In this document: positions 10,035-52,087 of the stretch, one piece after another | Layout of the letters: every line of letters begins with the position of its first letter | How positions within the stretch are numbered: the stretch's first letter is position 1 | Origin: Okeania sp. SIO1I7 | GTDB taxonomy: Bacteria > Cyanobacteriota > Cyanobacteriia > Cyanobacteriales > Microcoleaceae | DNA: 64,000 nucleotides | Direction: 5' to 3' | Assembly (NCBI GenBank): GCA_010672585.1 | Contig: JAAHGF010000001.1 | Location: 496,001 to 560,000 of the forward strand | Notes under the pieces: generated by a model | What the model was told of the DNA's origin: nothing | Seen by the model: only the letters and a program-made list of their open reading frames with translations | Database searches by the model: none | Position numbers and translations under genes: made by a program

Positions 10035-11399
10035 CTAGGTTTTGTCTTGCGAAATGTAGGCTTGAATAACCTGCCGATATTCACTCTTACGCTTCACACC
10101 TTTCAACTGTTCAACCAAATCCTTATTCTTAAAAAACTGAATCGTTGGTGTAGACATTACCCCTGCATTCTGAGCAATTTCGGGATCTTGCTCAATATCA
10201 ATCTCTACATAATGAATTTTTCCCTCAAACTCTTGTAGGACCTTCTCCAAAATAGGCTTCAAAGTATGACATGGAGCACAGGTAGGGGCAGAATACTTAA
10301 CTATAATTAGGCGATCGCTCTCGTGGTAGAGTTTCCGCAAAGCATAACCCCCCAGATGGTGAGTAGCATTCTGGTCAAAACTCTCAACAGTATCAACAAC
10401 TATCTCCTTATCCGATTTCTGAGTTGCATTTTCCTGAGCAAACTCCTGTACCAAACCTCTTTCTGACAACCATCTCTCTACCAACATTGCCCCCATACAA
10501 CCACTACCAGCAGCAGTTATTGCCTGACGAAACTCACTATCTTGGACATCACCCACAGCATAGACACCTTCAACGCTAGTTTTAACCATATCTCGAGTAA
10601 CCACATAACCCTTCTCATCTAACTCCAACTGTCCTTGAAAAATTTGAGTATTTGGGGTATGACCAATAGCATAAAACAAACCACTCACTGGTAAGTCCTG
10701 CTGTGTACCAGTTTGATTATTTCTGAGTTTCACACCTTCAAACACACCATTACCATATACATCTATAACTTCAGTTTGCCAATGAACAGTAATTTTCGGA
10801 TTTTCTAACACTCTCTGCTGCATCGTCTTACTTGCCTGCATTCGGTCTCGACGTACCAATAAATGAATATGAGAACCATACTTAGTTAAATAAAGAGACT
10901 CCTCCGCTGCAGTATCCCCACCACCAATAACTGCTAATTCCACTCCTTTAAAAGCTGGGTTAGCTCCATCGCAGACAGCACAAGCAGAAATACCACTATT
11001 CCAAAATTTTTCTTCACTAGGTAGTTTGAGTTTTTTGGCAGTCGCCCCAGTAGCAATGATGATGCTATAAGTTTTAATTTCTCGTTCCTCTGACTTAATA
11101 GTAAATGGGTACTGAGTTAAGTCTACAAAGGTAACATCTTCGGTGTATAGTTCTGTCCCCCAGCGAACTGCTTGATTTTTCATCCGTTCCATTAATTCCG
11201 GTCCGGTAATTCCTTCGGGAAAGCCGGGAAAGTTCTCTACTTCAGTCGTTGTCATTAATTGACCGCCTGGTACACCTCCTATTTGATAACCTTCAAAGAC
11301 TACTGGTTTGAGGTTCGCACGTCCTGCATAGATAGCGGCAGTATAGCCTGCTGGTCCTGAACCTATAACTACTAAGTTTTCTATTTTTTGTTTTGTCAT
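10035..11399 (-). CDS. ntrC: NADPH-thioredoxin reductase with fused thioredoxin domain (NTRC)
   Basis: 454 residues. Residues 1-310 are a thioredoxin reductase: FAD-binding [15 protein letters not shown], redox pair CAVC at 140/143, NADPH-binding GGGDTAAEE, and the C-terminal FAD motif YAVGDVQD. Residues about 345-454 are a thioredoxin domain with active site CAPC at 374/377. This is the NTRC architecture of chloroplasts and some cyanobacteria, a single-polypeptide NADPH-driven reductant for 2-Cys peroxiredoxins and, in plants, tetrapyrrole-synthesis enzymes. It is the full expected length with both CxxC pairs intact. It is transcribed alone; a decayed tnpB end lies about 180 bases upstream. 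The symbol should not be confused with the nitrogen regulator of the same name. Confidence 0.93.
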
Positions 11400-12277
11400 A
11401 ATGTCTAGACTTGGTGTTGACTGCTCCCCTTCCTCGGCGTTGCGCTTTATGAGGGGGATTCTTAAGTAATCCAGAATTGAACTCTTAAAGGCGTAGTCAA
11501 AGCACCACTACTAACTCCTTTAAGACATAATCCTAAAGTTGCCAATACTTTTCTTGACATACTCCCGATGCTGTTCTACAAGACAGCAGGGGATTCTTCA
11601 GCCAGAGAAACCCTGACCGCAGTTTTAACAGAGGTGATGTCCTCCCCCTGTGTTAAAATTTTGGCTGCATCATTGCAATCAGCATTAATCAAGCTGCCAT
11701 TGGCACAACTATACAATCCTCGTTTGACTCGCTTTCCTTATGGTTTCCAGCTTTTCTTACAGAATGCTGCGCAAACAGGTTTAGCACCGAATGTCGGCAA
11801 GAAATTATCATCTAATATCTGCTGATCAAGTTATACCAAATTCACGCAATGGTATTTACATCTTAATATAAGTTTTCTGCATTTACGTTGAATTTTGCCG
11901 ACCTATTGTTGTTTATATTATTAAAAAAAATATTTCTGAGGAGATAATTTTAAAATTGTAATGTTAAGTACATTATGAATAAAAGTAAAGTTGGCTAGTT
12001 ATTGACATTATTCTCAATTATTTGACGAATTTACTGAATTTGCAGTCTATGATATGATTTTTATAGTCACAGGATTGGTGTAATTAATTTGCAAAAAAAC
12101 TCTGGAAACTATATTTAAATCGTATTATGTTAAGTAATTTTAATTTTAATTTGTTGGAGAAAAAAACAATTTTTCTAGAGATAGCTTAACAATAAAGGCC
12201 GAAAATTTGACAAAAAACTAGATTTGTGTATGGTCATTTTGGTGATTGGTAGGAATTTTACTGAAACAGAAAAAATT
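11400..12277. other. Intergenic region with tnpB fragment
   Basis: The gap between the divergent NTRC and methyltransferase genes. Apart from the tnpB end listed separately it holds AT-rich sequence. The part from about 11830 to 12277 is very AT-rich and probably contains the methyltransferase promoter, which I cannot place exactly. Confidence 0.5.
11554..11760 (-). pseudogene. 3' fragment of tnpB with IS605-type right end
   Basis: Read on the minus strand it gives RGLYSCANGSLINADCNDAA, a recognisable end of a TnpB of the IS200/IS605 group, then EESPAVL and a stop at 11576-11578. The stop lies inside the right-end hairpin (CCCGATGCTGT/ACAGCAGGGG), followed by GAGTATGTCAAG. This stop-in-hairpin arrangement is the same as in the intact element at 27 kb. 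The upstream half of the gene is missing, and an R4-like core (GTTTGCGCAGCATTCTG) lies just beyond the break, near 11765-11785. Confidence 0.75.
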
Positions 12278-46206: not shown

Positions 46207-46342
46207 AAATACTATCCATTTAATACTATTGAAAAAAAGTCTACTACAAAAAAGAAAAGAATACATACTATGCCTAATTATCCCTTTCCAAAAAGTATCA
46301 ATCGACGCTATATTAAAAATCGTCAAACTTATTACTTTTTCT

Positions 46343-48553
46343 ATGAACCTTAAACGTAGAGAATTCCTTATATTTCTTGGAGCTACTGCAGGAACAATAA
46401 CCCTTGGTTCCTGTCAAAAACAATCATCTACTCCAGCAATTGAAAAATCTCCAATTAATGGAACTTCTACCAACAATATTAATTTCCAACCAGTTAAAGG
46501 TCCAATGCCTTTAAAAACAAATAATCAAGAATTAAAAATAGAAAATTATACTAATTACGAAGTAGTAGATGATTTAATAATTCCAGAAGGTTTTACTTAC
46601 GATGTTATTGGGTCATGGGGTGACAAAATAGGTGATTCACGTTTTGGCTACAATAACGACTATCTTTCCTACATTGAAACGGGTAAAAATGAAGGATTAT
46701 TAACCATAAACTTTGAATATATTAGTCCTTTGCCTTGGGTAACAACTTATCAAACAGTTATTGGTAAATCTATGCCTTTTGCAGAATTAGCAACAGCATT
46801 TAGACAGGCAGGAAAATCAGGAATTAGTTCAGAAGAATTACTTGAAAAATCCCTGAAACAAAAGATTATCGCAATAGCTAAAGAAGCAATGATTGATATG
46901 GGAATAGGTGTAATTTCCATACGTCGCGAACCCGATGGAAAATGGGTAAGAACAAATTCAAAATTTGACCGTAGAATAACAGGTATTTCAGGATTAGAAG
47001 ACGGGCGTTATTTAAAATCAACAGGACCAGCAGTAGCAGTTTTTAATAAAGGGAAAGGCAAAGGTTATAACGATCAATTAGGCGATCGCATCATTGGTAG
47101 TTTTGCTAACTGTGCAGGTGGGACTACACCTTGGGGAACAGTATTTAGCGCCGAAGAAAATTTTCAAAATTATGTGATAGAACCAGTCTATTCTGATGGT
47201 ACTTCTGTTGACCCGGTCAGAGAAAAATCTCTCTTTATTGGTGAAAGAGGAGTCGCAGGTCTGGGAAGTGCATTTGGTTTAGCTGGTAATAAGTATGGTT
47301 GGATGGTAGAAGTAGACCCAGCTAACCCTGACGACTATGGTACAAAACATACTTGGTTAGGTCGTTATCGCCACGAAGCAGTAGGTATTAGGGTAGAAAC
47401 TGATAAACCATTAGCATTTTATTCCGGATGCGATCGCCGTAGTGGTCATCTATATAAATTTGTGAGTAAAGGTACAGTAAAAGACCCCACTGATAAAGCT
47501 AACTCTCAACTTTTGAAAGATGGGATGTTGTACGGGGCTAAATTTAATCCTGATGGTACAGGTAGTTGGATTTCCCTGCAACCTGATACTCCTGTGAATC
47601 CAGATTTACCAGAAGTCCACGTTAACAATATGATTAATCTACCCCAAAGACCTGATGGTGGTAGCTTCAAAGCGATAACTGCTCAAGAAGTAGAAAGGTT
47701 CAAGCAGAAATATAAAACTCTGGGGGACTTGTATGAAGGTAATGCGGACGAGAAACAAGGAGCTATTCTCATTGATGCTCATCTAGCTGCTAATGCTGCT
47801 GGCGTTACTTGTACAGCACGTCCCGAAGATACTCAGGTAGATAAAAATGGTAACTTATTTATTGCCTTTACCTCCGGGTCTCCCAGTAAATCTGATGGTA
47901 GTCCAGACAAACGTATATTTAAAGGTCAGGATGATGAAGCTTACGAATTTGGTTGGATTATGCGTTTGAGTGAGGATGATAATCAACCAGATGCTATGAC
48001 ATTTAGTTGGCAAATGTTTGCTACTGGGGGCGAACCTATGGAGGGTGGACTGGGATTTTCTAATCCTGACAATTTAGAATTTGATGAACAAGGTAATCTG
48101 TGGATGGTGACAGATATTAGTACCAGTAAGCATAATAAAATAGTGCCAATGAATCGAATGGGTAAGGATGGTAAATCTGTAGACCAGTCTACTCTTTGTG
48201 GTTTATTTGGTAATAATTCTATCTGGTATCTTCCCACTTCTGGTTCTAATGCTGGAGAAGCTTATTTGTTTGGAATAGCGCCAACAGAAAGTGAAACTTG
48301 TGGGCCTTTCTTTACCAAAGACCAGAAAACCTTGTTTCTAGCTATTCAACATCCAGGGGAATATAACGGCATTCGCCAGAATATGGCTTCAGAAACTCGT
48401 CAGTTGGCAATGAAAACGACAGATGGTTCAGATTTTGTCCAGACTCGTACTGTGCCTATGGGGTCTAACTGGCCAACTAAACAAGTTAACGATTCTCCGA
48501 AACCTTCAGTTGTAGCTATTCGTCGATTGGATTCAACACCAATTACTTCATAG
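46343..48553 (+). CDS. phoX: Alkaline phosphatase PhoX (DUF839), Tat-exported
   Basis: About 736 residues from the ATG at 46343. The start NLKRREFLIFLGATAGTITL followed by GSC is a twin-arginine signal with a lipobox-like cysteine, so a TTG start at 46229 (38 extra residues) is unlikely. The PhoX/DUF839 core is clear: EGFTYDVIGSWGDKIGD, NCAGGTTPWGTVFSAEEN, WMVEVDPANPDDYGTKHTWL, GRYRHEAVGIRVETDKPLAF, YSGCDRRSGHLYKFVS. The enzyme releases phosphate from organic esters in the periplasm using Fe and Ca ions. It is the main alternative to PhoA in marine bacteria and is induced by phosphate starvation. Its TAG stop forms part of an R5 repeat end. Confidence 0.93.
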   Translation: MNLKRREFLIFLGATAGTITLGSCQKQSSTPAIEKSPINGTSTNNINFQPVKGPMPLKTNNQELKIENYTNYEVVDDLIIPEGFTYDVIGSWGDKIGDSRFGYNNDYLSYIETGKNEGLLTINFEYISPLPWVTTYQTVIGKSMPFAELATAFRQAGKSGISSEELLEKSLKQKIIAIAKEAMIDMGIGVISIRREPDGKWVRTNSKFDRRITGISGLEDGRYLKSTGPAVAVFNKGKGKGYNDQLGDRIIGSFANCAGGTTPWGTVFSAEENFQNYVIEPVYSDGTSVDPVREKSLFIGERGVAGLGSAFGLAGNKYGWMVEVDPANPDDYGTKHTWLGRYRHEAVGIRVETDKPLAFYSGCDRRSGHLYKFVSKGTVKDPTDKANSQLLKDGMLYGAKFNPDGTGSWISLQPDTPVNPDLPEVHVNNMINLPQRPDGGSFKAITAQEVERFKQKYKTLGDLYEGNADEKQGAILIDAHLAANAAGVTCTARPEDTQVDKNGNLFIAFTSGSPSKSDGSPDKRIFKGQDDEAYEFGWIMRLSEDDNQPDAMTFSWQMFATGGEPMEGGLGFSNPDNLEFDEQGNLWMVTDISTSKHNKIVPMNRMGKDGKSVDQSTLCGLFGNNSIWYLPTSGSNAGEAYLFGIAPTESETCGPFFTKDQKTLFLAIQHPGEYNGIRQNMASETRQLAMKTTDGSDFVQTRTVPMGSNWPTKQVNDSPKPSVVAIRRLDSTPITS

Positions 48554-48914: not shown

Positions 48915-49157
48915 AATAGAAATTGAGAAACTGAAAAAGGATAAATGGTTATAAGTTGGTCGTTAAATCGAATGATTTTTTAATTTGACATTATTATTTT
49001 AATTTCAGATTTGACTATCAGTTTGTCTTACTATCCTTTCTTTGCTTAGTTTTTGGCTTGTTTTCTGAAAAAAATAATCTGAAAATTAGGTTGCAAATTA
49101 TCAAATTAGGTGTAAAATTTGCGACGAGACCGTAATTTTTAACTAAAAAACACAGGA

Positions 49158-49401
49158 GCATGAAAGCCATCGTCCTTTAAGCGATGGATGAAAGGCGAGG
49201 AGTCGGATTTTAATCCGAATTTTATCTTACAAAAGTAAGCAGAAAGCTAAGTTTGGACTTAAGCAGACTGTGTAGGACTTTGACTTGTCCCCAAAGAGTA
49301 TATCTTTGGTCAGCTAAGAAGAGACGGATCAACACAGATAAATCCGTGTTGCGTAGTATCTACTTAGAATCCCCTCGGCAACAGTTGTGGGGAGTAGTCA
49401 A
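49158..49401 (+). ncRNA. Structured unit 1: IS605-like ends with omega-RNA-like core
   Basis: The left hairpin CCATCG (49167-49172) / CGATGG (49182-49187) is followed by ATGAAAGGCGA, like the left end of the tnpB element at 27 kb. The right hairpin (CCCC 49371, GGGG 49389) is preceded by GAAT and followed by AGTAGTCAA. Stems in between: TCGGAT/ATCCGA (49203, 49213), CCAAAGA/TCTTTGG (49291, 49303) and CAACAC/GTGTTG (49330, 49346). Unit 2 keeps the same stems with different bases. It has no ORF. A stand-alone guide RNA or a non-autonomous IS605-type element are the two main readings. Confidence 0.55.
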
Positions 49402-49557
49402 AAATCAAGCAAAAATATAATTTCTAAGGTGGCATCTTAAGCTCATCTCTTGTAAACAAACTGTATATACAGACAAAATAACTAAACTGTGATATAGAGA
49501 AAAGAATAATGGTTGAGCTTTTCGTAAAGAAATACTTACCAAATTAACACGGGAGCA

Positions 49558-49828
49558 TGAAAGCCATCGTCTTTGAAGCGATGGATGAAATGCGACTCAA
49601 TGGATTTTAATCCATCCTATCTTTTTCTTTCTTGGGAAAAGCCGTACACTTCTTCAAGAAGTAAGCACGACACTTAATTTTGATTTAAGTCGAGTGTCTA
49701 GGGGTGTTTTGACTCGTCCCCAGAAGTTAAAATTCTGGTCAGCTAAAAAGACACTACCCAATGCGGTTTTAACCCATTGCGCAGTATCCTTTTAGAATTC
49801 CCGTCGATTTATCGCGGGGAGAAGTCAA
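49558..49828 (+). ncRNA. Structured unit 2: paralogue of unit 1
   Basis: The left hairpin CCATCG/CGATGG (49564, 49579) again follows GGAGCATGAAAG. Stems: ATGGAT/ATCCAT (49600, 49610), GACACT/AGTGTC (49669, 49693), CCAGAA/TTCTGG (49720, 49733) and CAATG/CATTG (49759, 49775). The right hairpin CCCG/CGGG (49800, 49815) is followed by AGAAGTCAA. GACTCGTCCCC and GGTCAGCTAAAAAG are shared with unit 1. There is no ORF. Different bases in matching stems argue that the RNA fold is conserved. Confidence 0.55.
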
Positions 49829-49909
49829 CACTCGTGAAAGCTAACAAAAAAAAGTAAACTCACAGCTAGATTTCGGTCTATGCCGAGGAGTTTAGGAGTC
49901 TGTTGACAG

Positions 49910-50035
49910 GCTTTAAGCAAATGTGGATTTATGAGGGGCTGCGTGCGGAATTTACTTCCGCACTTTAAACGTCCCGTCCCATTTGCGGTGGACTAACCAC
50001 AGAATCCAGGGTGTTTCAACCCCTGGAGATGTCAA
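49910..50035 (+). ncRNA. Structured unit 3: possible third omega-RNA-like end
   Basis: A long-range stem GCAAATG (49917-49923) / CATTTGC (49980-49986) encloses a perfect TGCGGAA/TTCCGCA hairpin (49944, 49956). It is followed by GGTGGACTAACCACAGAATC and a right-end hairpin CCAGGG/CCCCTGG (50006, 50020) with AGATGTCAA. It has the same right-end grammar as units 1 and 2, but the left hairpin is not clear. Confidence 0.4.
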
Positions 50036-50198
50036 TAATCTCTAATATAATCAAACGACTTTTGCAGTTGGCCATTTAAAACTTAAGATCGAAAAAAAAT
50101 ATTAAGACTTATTCAAACCTTTGTTTTTTCGTAAAACAAAAACAAATATAACGCCCTAGTCTTGATATATCAAAACAAAAGTAGAGATTCAGTACAAA

Positions 50199-50302
50199 AA
50201 GGCGGTGAGTCTCATCGTCTCTGTCTGCGGAGGGTTAAGTGGTTGCACTCCCTGTGAAACAGAAAGCCCTATCCGTGAGGTTGGGAAGCGTACATCATAA
50301 TC
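50199..50302 (+). ncRNA. Structured unit 4: possible tnpB 3'-end remnant in the porin leader
   Basis: Contains GGTTGCACTCCCTGTGAAAC and CAGAAAGCCCTATCCG, with CTGT/ACAG and weak GCCCTA/TTGGG pairing, then GAAGCGTACATC. This resembles 3' ends of some cyanobacterial tnpB elements as I recall them. It lies just before the porin gene, so it could instead be part of that gene's 5' leader. Confidence 0.3.
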
Positions 50303-50350
50303 TTTGATTTGATGTAGGAGAATGTCACATTGGTGTGAGGGTTAGTAAAT

Positions 50351-52087
50351 ATGACAAGACTTATCTGGAAAACTCTAAAGCACAGTCCAAGTGTTTTTAG
50401 CGCAACATTGTTATTAATGGCAGGTTCGGCGATCGCTGCGGAACCTCCTTTACAAACTTTAGGAAGTGGCGAAAATTCTGCAAATCAGAACTTAGCCCAA
50501 AATACGATAGAAAACCCATCTTCCTTTGAAATAGCTCAAATAGATATTCGCTCAATGCCCATGGATGACCCTTCACTGGCACCAGTGGGAGTATCAGACT
50601 TGGAAGATGGAGAGTCACTCGATCAGGTAACATCTGTAACTCAGTTATCAGATGTACAACCTACAGACTGGGCATTCCAAGCACTACAATCTTTGGTAGA
50701 GCGTTATGGTTGTATCGCAGGTTATCCTGATGGGACTTATAAGGGAAATCGAGCGATGACCCGTCATGAGTTTGCAGCAGGTTTGAATTCTTGTTTAGAC
50801 CGAATTACAGAATTAATTGCGGCCGCAACTTCTGACCTAGTAACTAGAGAAGATTTAGCAGTTTTACAAAGACTGCAAGAGGAATTTGCAGCAGAATTAG
50901 CTGCTTTGCGAGGACGAGTAGATGCTCTAGAAGCTAGAACCGCAGAACTAGAAAATAATCAGTTCTCCACTACTACCAAACTTAACGGAGAGGTTTTGTT
51001 TTGGTTGAGCGATACCTGGGGAGAACAAGCTGAGGGACGCGGAAGATCCGGGAGTGATGAGGACGAAACTCAGACAACCTTTGGTTATCGGGTTCGTTTG
51101 AACTTTGATACCAGTTTTACAGGAGAGGACCGCTTAAGAACTCGTCTACAAGCTAATAACATTCCTAACTATAGCGGTGGAGATTTGACCAATAGTTTAA
51201 TGACTCGTTTAGCTACAGATAGCAGTCCGGATGATACTGTTTCTATTGGCAAGTTGGCCTATCGTTTTCCTGTACTGAATGGTAGAGGTGAAATAGAACT
51301 AGCTGCTACAGGCTACGGTATTGATGACTTTATCGGAGTTATCACACCTCTAGAAAGTAGTGGTGCTGGTGCTATTTCCAGATTTGGACGATTCAACCCT
51401 ATTTATTATCGTGCTCCTTCTGATGCTGGTGTTAAGTTTGCCTACGCTTTCAATGATGCAATTCAGGTAACTGTGGGTTATGCTGCACCAGATAAGGAAG
51501 ATCCTCGAGAAGGTAGAGGTGCTTTTAATGGTTCATTTAGTGGATTTGGCCAGTTTACAATTGAACCAAATGACAAACTTGCTTTTCAAGTCGGTTATTT
51601 GCGCGGCTATCATACGAAAAACGATGTTAACTTGACCGGAAGTACAGGTAGTTTTCTAGCCAGAGATCCTTTTGATGGTAGAGCAACTACCACAGATACT
51701 ATTAACTTTGAGGCTCAATGGAGAGTTACTGATGGCTTTCAGATAGGTGGTTGGGGCGGTACTTTATTTGCCCGTCCTGAAGATGATGATGATACTGATG
51801 ATATCACTATTATCACTGGTGCTTTGACTTTAGCTTTCCCAGACCTACTAAAAGAAGGTAGTCTAGGAGGTATTATTGTTGGTGTGCCACCAATTGTTAC
51901 TGATGGTGGTGATAATGATGATTTGAAAGATGATGATACTTCTATACATATTGAAGCTTTTTATCGCTTCCAAATGAACGACAATATCGCTATTACTCCC
52001 GGTGTATTTGTGATTACAAATCCTAACCACATTGAGGATAATGACACTCTTTGGGTCGGTACATTAAGAACTCAATTCAGATTCTAA
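50351..52087 (+). CDS. SLH-domain OprB-type porin (copy 1)
   Basis: 578 residues. A signal peptide covers about residues 1-29 (SATLLLMAGSAIAAE). Residues about 95-150 are an SLH domain (LSDVQPTDWAFQALQSLVER, GCIAGYPDGTYKGNRAMTRH) that binds the peptidoglycan layer. A coiled coil follows (ELAALRGRVDALEARTAELE), then an OprB-like beta-barrel ending in Phe (LRTQFRF). Such proteins are the main cyanobacterial outer-membrane channels, passing small solutes and inorganic ions including iron. About 80% of the sequence matches copy 2 by eye. A GAGGG sequence upstream of the ATG gives a ribosome site. Structured DNA units lie in the upstream region. Confidence 0.92.
   Translation: MTRLIWKTLKHSPSVFSATLLLMAGSAIAAEPPLQTLGSGENSANQNLAQNTIENPSSFEIAQIDIRSMPMDDPSLAPVGVSDLEDGESLDQVTSVTQLSDVQPTDWAFQALQSLVERYGCIAGYPDGTYKGNRAMTRHEFAAGLNSCLDRITELIAAATSDLVTREDLAVLQRLQEEFAAELAALRGRVDALEARTAELENNQFSTTTKLNGEVLFWLSDTWGEQAEGRGRSGSDEDETQTTFGYRVRLNFDTSFTGEDRLRTRLQANNIPNYSGGDLTNSLMTRLATDSSPDDTVSIGKLAYRFPVLNGRGEIELAATGYGIDDFIGVITPLESSGAGAISRFGRFNPIYYRAPSDAGVKFAYAFNDAIQVTVGYAAPDKEDPREGRGAFNGSFSGFGQFTIEPNDKLAFQVGYLRGYHTKNDVNLTGSTGSFLARDPFDGRATTTDTINFEAQWRVTDGFQIGGWGGTLFARPEDDDDTDDITIITGALTLAFPDLLKEGSLGGIIVGVPPIVTDGGDNDDLKDDDTSIHIEAFYRFQMNDNIAITPGVFVITNPNHIEDNDTLWVGTLRTQFRF

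Follow-up and report, generated by a model that had tools for sequence, protein, structure and literature searches.

Units 1 and 2, two short elements upstream of a porin gene in Okeania sp. SIO1I7, are very probably non-autonomous, core-deleted derivatives (PATE/MITE type) of IS200/IS605 elements that encode a divergent TnpB, and they keep both ends and the whole omega-RNA of such an element. As PATE/MITE-type derivatives carrying the complete omega-RNA of their parent they are ordinary in kind and well documented here. The window, by which we mean the whole stretch of 64,000 nucleotides analyzed, was compared at this locus between the own genome (G000) and four sister Okeania genomes (G040, G041, G042 and G043). 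A first-pass annotation had described units 1 and 2 as related, with a set of matching stems; the named stems are present, the units align in three blocks at 71-81% identity, and the empty sites refined the borders to 49143-49401 (unit 1) and 49540-49828 (unit 2). The features of the locus are as follows:

46229-48553: PhoX gene, the neighbour on one side of units 1 and 2.
49139-49142, + strand: TAM-like target motif left of unit 1, TTAA in G000, TTAT in G043, TTAC in G040, G041 and the G042 empty site.
49143-49401, + strand: unit 1, entire mobile element of 259 bp as judged by the G042 empty site, left end LE1 joined to a tnpB 3' end plus right end.
49167-49187, + strand: left-end hairpin CCATCG...CGATGG of unit 1, from the sequence.
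49203-49218, + strand: terminator-like stem-loop in the unit 1 left end, preceding the RNA (one found in the region, 0.9 expected in shuffles).
49232-49401, + strand: omega-RNA/reRNA scaffold of unit 1 (covariance model R1, 170.1 bits; overlap with tnpB in L003).
49280-49285, + strand: 5' strand of the unit 1 pseudoknot, UUGACU, pairing with AGUCAA at 49396-49401.
49366-49401, + strand: right-end hairpin and terminus of unit 1, AGAATC...AGTCAA.
49402-49417, + strand: putative 16-nt guide position of the unit 1 RNA, placed by analogy with ISDra2 as described in passages of PMC8612924.
49536-49539, + strand: target motif TTAC of unit 2.
49540-49828, + strand: unit 2, entire mobile element of 289 bp as judged by the G041 empty site, an internal deletion of an L219-type tnpB element.
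49658-49828, + strand: omega-RNA/reRNA scaffold of unit 2 (covariance model R1, 161.1 bits).
49829-50035, + strand: unit 3, a 207-bp repeated element with a more diverged third RNA of the class (model match 49851-50035, 49 bits).
50188-50330, + strand: unit 4, a 143-nt repeat, at the locus in all five genomes.
50351-52087: SLH/OprB porin gene, the neighbour on the other side, with units 1-4 directly upstream.

Judging from the empty sites in the sister genomes, units 1 and 2 are mobile elements. The locus alignment showed unit 1 filled in G000, G040, G041 and G043 and empty in G042; there TTTTTAC abuts AAATCAAGCAAAAAT, the stretch found 3' of unit 1. Unit 2 was present at the locus in G000 only among the five genomes, and at its empty site in G041 TACTTAC runs directly into CACTCGTGAAAGC. 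Both empty sites show insertion 3' of TTAC without target duplication. Among the 86 copies of the RNA described below, TTAC was found left of 56 of the 60 left ends that could be scored by script, the other four having TTAA (unit 1), TAAC, TCAT and ATAA; two of the 26 copies that were not scorable, unit 2 and L219, have TTAC by inspection. Three more full-length copies of unit 2 were found in G043, at 93-95% identity. The Y1 transposase has ten matches in the own genome, one of which adjoins a related tnpB on C28, and we propose that Y1 TnpA supplied in trans would move the units, the RNA being carried along within the right end.

Unit 3 has many copies in the genus (73-97% identity among the matches listed). 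Three of them (L156, L157 and L159) extend further left, and the left tip of unit 3 is therefore missing at this locus; in G040, G042 and G043 its place is taken by about 50 nt of different DNA. A unit 2 guide matching every unit 3 copy after TTAC was considered and rejected, as the pattern had no genome match at up to one mismatch and the three copies above start further left. The motif was not found in the viral contigs searched. The unit 4 repeat occurs at many places across the five Okeania genomes and holds GAAACAGAAAG, as does the 3' end of the tnpB at 27 kb (80% over 35 nt, E 0.25). The right ends of units 3 and 4 had been thought to resemble those of units 1 and 2, which is true of unit 3 but not of unit 4, where we found neither an AGAATC...TCAA right end nor an R1 match at E up to 1e-8.

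The parentage of the units was evident from comparison with related elements that still carry tnpB. With unit 1 as query we found 38 places in the own genome, several of them pairs 1.4-1.7 kb apart, with a match to approximately the left 96-100 nt of unit 1 at one place and to its right 175 nt at the other. The paired matches of L003, L005 and L006 enclose a stop-to-stop frame of 439-470 codons, which NCBIfam identified as guided_TnpB (153-170 bits, cut-off 100). Since the matches to the left end and to the RNA and right end flank a tnpB, unit 1 is a left end to which the tnpB 3' end and the right end have been joined; comparison with L003 and L205 for the core deletion gave the same composition, LE1 plus tnpB 3' end. 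In L003 the RNA block starts within tnpB, 45 codons short of the stop, and extends to the right end of the element; by origin, the unit 1 scaffold upstream of the right-end hairpin is the final 45 codons of tnpB with the stop codon. For unit 2 the counterpart is L219, a tnpB element of G042: 98 nt align at 96% and another 199 nt at 93%, and the 1,239 nt of L219 that separate these two segments are absent from unit 2. A junction exactly at the RNA border was rejected for unit 2, because, set against L219, unit 2 retains a further 28 nt of tnpB. Over the RNA the tnpB-bearing copies compared are mostly 86-90% identical to unit 1 (L219 and L026 less), thus a direct parent copy of unit 1 was not found among them.

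The tnpB-bearing copies in the own genome have the order LE-tnpB-RNA-RE, and in the parent the RNA scaffold overlaps the 45 C-terminal codons of tnpB together with the stop codon. Like PATE/MITE elements, units 1 and 2 have IS605-type subterminal hairpins at both ends and lack coding capacity, they show motif-directed insertion without duplication, and they arose by core deletion. The earlier statement that no protein is encoded is correct in function, although unit 1 still reads as a TnpB C-terminus (residues 424-464, 83% identical). The first-pass annotation had also named, as the outcome that would speak against stand-alone guide units, tnpB 3' ends from which the coding part has been deleted. 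This is literally what the units are; yet they keep a complete covarying RNA with its pseudoknot, and the core deletion therefore does not exclude a guide function. If transcribed, the unit RNA could load into TnpB made by intact copies, a step that is not needed to explain the units.

Two further observations concern the architecture of the tnpB-bearing relatives. L003, L005 and L006 have two left-end hairpin regions in tandem, LE1 followed by LE2 with a promoter region, whereas the other tnpB elements have LE2 only. In L004, L010, L012, L014, L020 and L026 a palindrome of about 50 nt, GCGATGCAG...GACTGCATCAAGA, is inserted close to the 3' end of tnpB, at one and the same position.

The RNA blocks of units 1 and 2 each fold better than 200 of 200 dinucleotide shuffles (z -3.0 and -3.6, respectively), and the consensus structure comprises 44 nested pairs and a pseudoknot of six pairs. 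Covariation was counted in two alignments. The own-genome alignment contains 26 of the 27 copies that later scored above 110 bits (the copy at C1:466299, split by an insertion, was left out, and 43 weaker matches were unused); here both sides had changed in 25 of the 50 pairs, compared to 7.0 +/- 2.0 in shuffled and 6-9 in slid controls. Among 32 diverged copies the corresponding count was 36 of 50, against 25.5 +/- 2.2 shuffled and 13-21 slid, a count that leans towards the nested structure because this alignment was fitted to it. The covariation of stems first noticed between units 1 and 2 thus exceeds both kinds of control in both alignments, and the IS605-type ends, the mobility and the omega-RNA-like right part suspected at that stage were likewise borne out.

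In the pseudoknot, UUGACN in the loop of the GGGGCA/UGUCCCC helix pairs with NGUCAA at the very end of the element. The N pair is U-A in 20, C-G in 5 and A-U in 2 of the 29 sequences with letters at these positions, and all six pairs are intact in 24 of the 32 sequences. The RNA thus overlaps the 3' end of tnpB, terminates at the right end and has a conserved structure with a 3'-end pseudoknot, as is the case for TnpB omega-RNA (reRNA). Outside the family, eight of the nine best loci have the RNA directly 3' of a TnpB that is 60-75% identical to the Okeania TnpB (L339 is the one without TnpB, and in L345 the TnpB is cut by a contig end). At E up to 0.001 the RNA model had at least 70 matches in the own genome, a few of them antisense or weak; this is a lower bound, as 150 of 1957 candidates were scored, and a window match at 11417 is not among the 70. 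Counting the own genome in both, and with few candidates scored per genome, at least 58 of 61 genomes of the family and at least 83 of 148 of the order have matches. A comparison with HEARO RNA had been suggested, and no Rfam family, HEARO included, reached its gathering score in the window. HgcC (20 bits, cut-off 50) and gyrA, which came up in 49000-50400 at E up to 5, are far below gathering and were taken as chance.

Some copies of the RNA are rearranged. At 11417-11820 on the minus strand, directly upstream of a thioredoxin reductase-like gene (10035-11399), the window holds a decayed tnpB 3' end. Its RNA belongs to the same class (47.8 bits), and the sequence is broken up by a different IS605-type element whose right end lies at 11554-11597. 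Exchanged modules recur inside the RNA in L005, L009, L010, L012, L014, L015, L020, L025 and L026: CACCGCGGAAATT stands in place of CACTTTGACTT, with loss of the pseudoknot strand, GCGCTCGAA in place of GCTAAGAA, and GACGCTATGCC in place of GACTTAAGCC. These modules alter the length of the RNA and thereby the frame of tnpB, as if swapped between copies. In addition, hairpin loops are found in both orientations among the copies, GATAAATCC / GGATTTATC and AACTTTAGTT / AACTAAAGTT (locus alignment columns ~287-305; B1 copies), as if inverted within the palindrome.

The likely partner of units 1 and 2, as far as its sequence allows us to say, is a divergent TnpB family that lacks the CxxC pair, has its RuvC-II glutamate relocated and is encoded at other places in the genome. 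In this cognate TnpB the RuvC-I aspartate is kept (GIDHG in the closest members, GIDPG in six of the relatives compared), as is the RuvC-III aspartate. The usual RuvC-II glutamate is absent and a glutamate is found before SYTS instead, which fits the "alternative E" of PMC10711439 in the passages that describe it. The zinc-finger CxxC pair is lacking in all 13 aligned members with the alternative glutamate. A structure model of the cognate TnpB (mean pLDDT 76, pTM 0.51) resembled Cas12f, TnpB and Fanzor2 chains in Foldseek with query TM-scores of about 0.4-0.5, and a PDB sequence search gave no match at E up to 0.01. According to passages of PMC10278001, one TnpB of a clade with rearranged RuvC-II is active; together with the kept D/E(alt)/D residues and the structural likeness of the model this suggests that the cognate enzyme may be an active nuclease. 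It does not conform to a pro-Fanzor TnpB, which has DPG, the alternative glutamate, a CxxC zinc finger and an IS607 partner: the alternative glutamate is present and DPG is found in some members, but the closest have DHG, the CxxC pair is missing and a Y1 TnpA lies beside one related tnpB. The TnpBs of L128, L129, L063, L066, L067 and L219 combine GIDPG and the alternative glutamate with no CxxC pair (L066 adjoins a Y1 tnpA); a search pattern that requires CxxC, like that given in the consulted part of PMC10711439, would miss them.

To see how the RNA is distributed with and without tnpB we examined 86 copies, some of which are orthologues of each other: 26 from the own genome and 60 of 112 matches in G041 (34), G042 (16) and G040 (10). 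The 60 came from listed hits, of which six were left out (five near a contig start and one at G040:C210), as was G043. At least 380 of the 425 TnpB core residues were present in 27 copies, 100-379 in nine, fewer in another nine (among which L210, L223 and L226 are truncated at a contig end) and none in 41. The 41 tnpB-less copies comprise 13 of type B1, 10 of type B2 and 18 others, among them unit 1 with its G040 and G041 orthologues, and unit 2. With orthologues merged, the 23 copies of B1 and B2 represent about 19 sites.

Could such tnpB-less units be working stand-alone guide-RNA genes? The TnpB of their relatives would then bind the RNA and cut the empty site (TTAC plus guide), repair would recopy the unit, and the units would live as parasites of TnpA and TnpB. 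We regard this as possible, but on balance lean against it. As the 86 copies were picked by their RNA, its presence there proves nothing; however, a search of the own genome for the left end, independent of the RNA, gave 22 places at 20 loci with LE2, and the RNA was kept at 19 of these loci (absent at L322), including 11 of the 12 without full-length tnpB. A promoter-like sequence, TAGACA-(16-19)-TANNNT, precedes the RNA in 16 of the 23 B1 and B2 copies, 23 nt before it in 9 of 13 B1 and 9 nt before it in 7 of 10 B2, and is present in 7 of the 18 other tnpB-less copies. The RNA has the same 5' border in unit 1, B1, B2 and the L042/L046 type (four junction types, of which B1 and B2 are perhaps not independent), while unit 2 and L015 keep about 28 nt more of tnpB. 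Furthermore, the 3' flank of unit 1 matches the sequence that follows TTAC in the G042 empty site, the first 15 nt of the putative guide being identical to it.

Against this stand several findings. Units 1 and 2 have no TAGACA-(16-19)-TANNNT before the RNA, and in unit 1 the RNA is preceded by the terminator-like hairpin. A promoter consensus scan gave two sites in L009, one per strand, against 0.3 expected, but around the units only six against 3.5 expected, which is near chance, and one of them (49091-49118) lies upstream of and outside unit 1. The RNA is also roughly the last tenth of the element, so that random break points would mostly spare it anyway.

Sequence change within the RNA gave a divided answer. 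Substitutions are rarer in stems than outside (4.1% vs 10.3% in B1, 5.0% vs 8.4% in B2), and affected pairs are still paired in 18 of 41 cases in B1 and 16 of 34 in B2, values reached by 0 of 2000 simulations, although inherited changes are counted repeatedly here. When each distinct pair state was counted once and the right-end hairpin left out, B1 had 5 of 20 (3.1 expected), B2 9 of 19 (6.4) and both together 11 of 34 (7.6), which is not significant. All 41 tnpB-less copies gave 30 of 75 against 23.9 expected (reached by 241 of 3000 simulations), whereas the tnpB-bearing copies were above chance with 29 of 62 against 20.5 (39 of 3000). All pairs of the pseudoknot are kept in 8 of the 22 B1 and B2 copies that could be scored, compared to 20 of the 27 with tnpB (Fisher p 0.011, without correction for relatedness), in 14 of 18 other tnpB-less copies, in 2 of 7 scorable partial and in 5 of 9 short-remnant copies; a stricter motif count gave 8 of 23 for B1 and B2, 14 of 18 for the other tnpB-less copies and 22 of 27 for the tnpB-bearing. 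Selection on the RNA after loss of tnpB was consequently rejected as a claim, the sequence-counting test being positive, the distinct-state test not significant and the pseudoknot count contrary. It is the random break points and the distinct-state and pseudoknot counts, weighed against retention, promoters and borders, that set our low estimate for guiding in trans.

We hold as still somewhat more doubtful a broader proposal, in which the multi-copy Okeania miniature transposons would be guide-RNA genes consisting of a promoter, omega-RNA and ends, fused at the RNA 5' border more than once, moved by TnpA and retained by the TnpB of other copies, with its relocated glutamate and missing zinc finger. 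One nuclease would then serve dozens of units with different guides.

A regulatory role is very unlikely by comparison. The position of units 1-4 directly upstream of the porin gene would suit a tnpB-less unit that regulates this gene, perhaps together with a TnpB-like protein of the nuclease-dead TldR kind. Nevertheless, the start of the porin gene is found in five of five genomes, whereas G042 lacks unit 1 and four of the five lack unit 2, and the cognate TnpBs keep D, E(alt) and D. The ordinary TnpB at 27 kb, the partner first put forward and an open frame in the same window, can practically be dismissed as the protein that the units guide, since it is of a different type, about 20% identical to the cognate TnpB, and its gene has no R1 match at the 3' end at E up to 1e-8.

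Taken together, units 1 and 2, as core-deleted derivatives, are identified and their partner is corrected. The family provides a natural test set for TnpB-type omega-RNA in trans, with the RNA present with and without tnpB, many guides, TTAC and empty sites in sister genomes. Should the units prove to guide in trans, transposons too small for a protein gene would rely on an RNA-guided nuclease to secure their own retention. For IscB, stand-alone omega-RNA loci without a nuclease gene exist; the units differ from these in having a TnpB-type RNA at the 3' side of the gene and no HEARO match in Rfam. Among the papers listed by searches of the open-licence PMC library we recognised no account of tnpB-less omega-RNA MITEs.

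The closest described elements are the PATEs of Haloquadratum, especially HqIRS71, which according to passages of PMC3119063 share with the units IS605-type ends, the lack of terminal inverted repeats and of target duplication, and in some cases an origin by core deletion. The units differ in being cyanobacterial and in that the retained part is a complete covarying omega-RNA with a pseudoknot; in those passages of the 2011 paper the retained part is not treated as RNA. The cognate TnpB shares with alternative-E TnpB and Fanzor, as portrayed in parts of PMC10711439 and, for the RII-r clades, PMC10278001, a glutamate about six residues before the former first zinc-finger cysteine and, in several members, GIDPG; the Okeania type differs by the missing CxxC pair (13 members) and by one related tnpB lying beside a Y1 tnpA instead of an IS607 recombinase. 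With the reRNA/omega-RNA of ISDra2 TnpB, as presented in sections of PMC8612924 and PMC10097598, the unit RNA has in common its formation from the tnpB 3' end and right end, a guide from the flank (putative here), a target motif and a 3'-end pseudoknot, for which ISDra2 uses the 3' end of the scaffold (the cited section of PMC10097598). The units are set apart from ISDra2 by a scaffold of about 170 nt, TTAC in place of TTGAT, a pseudoknot partner in the GGGGCA/UGUCCCC loop and the deletion of tnpB.
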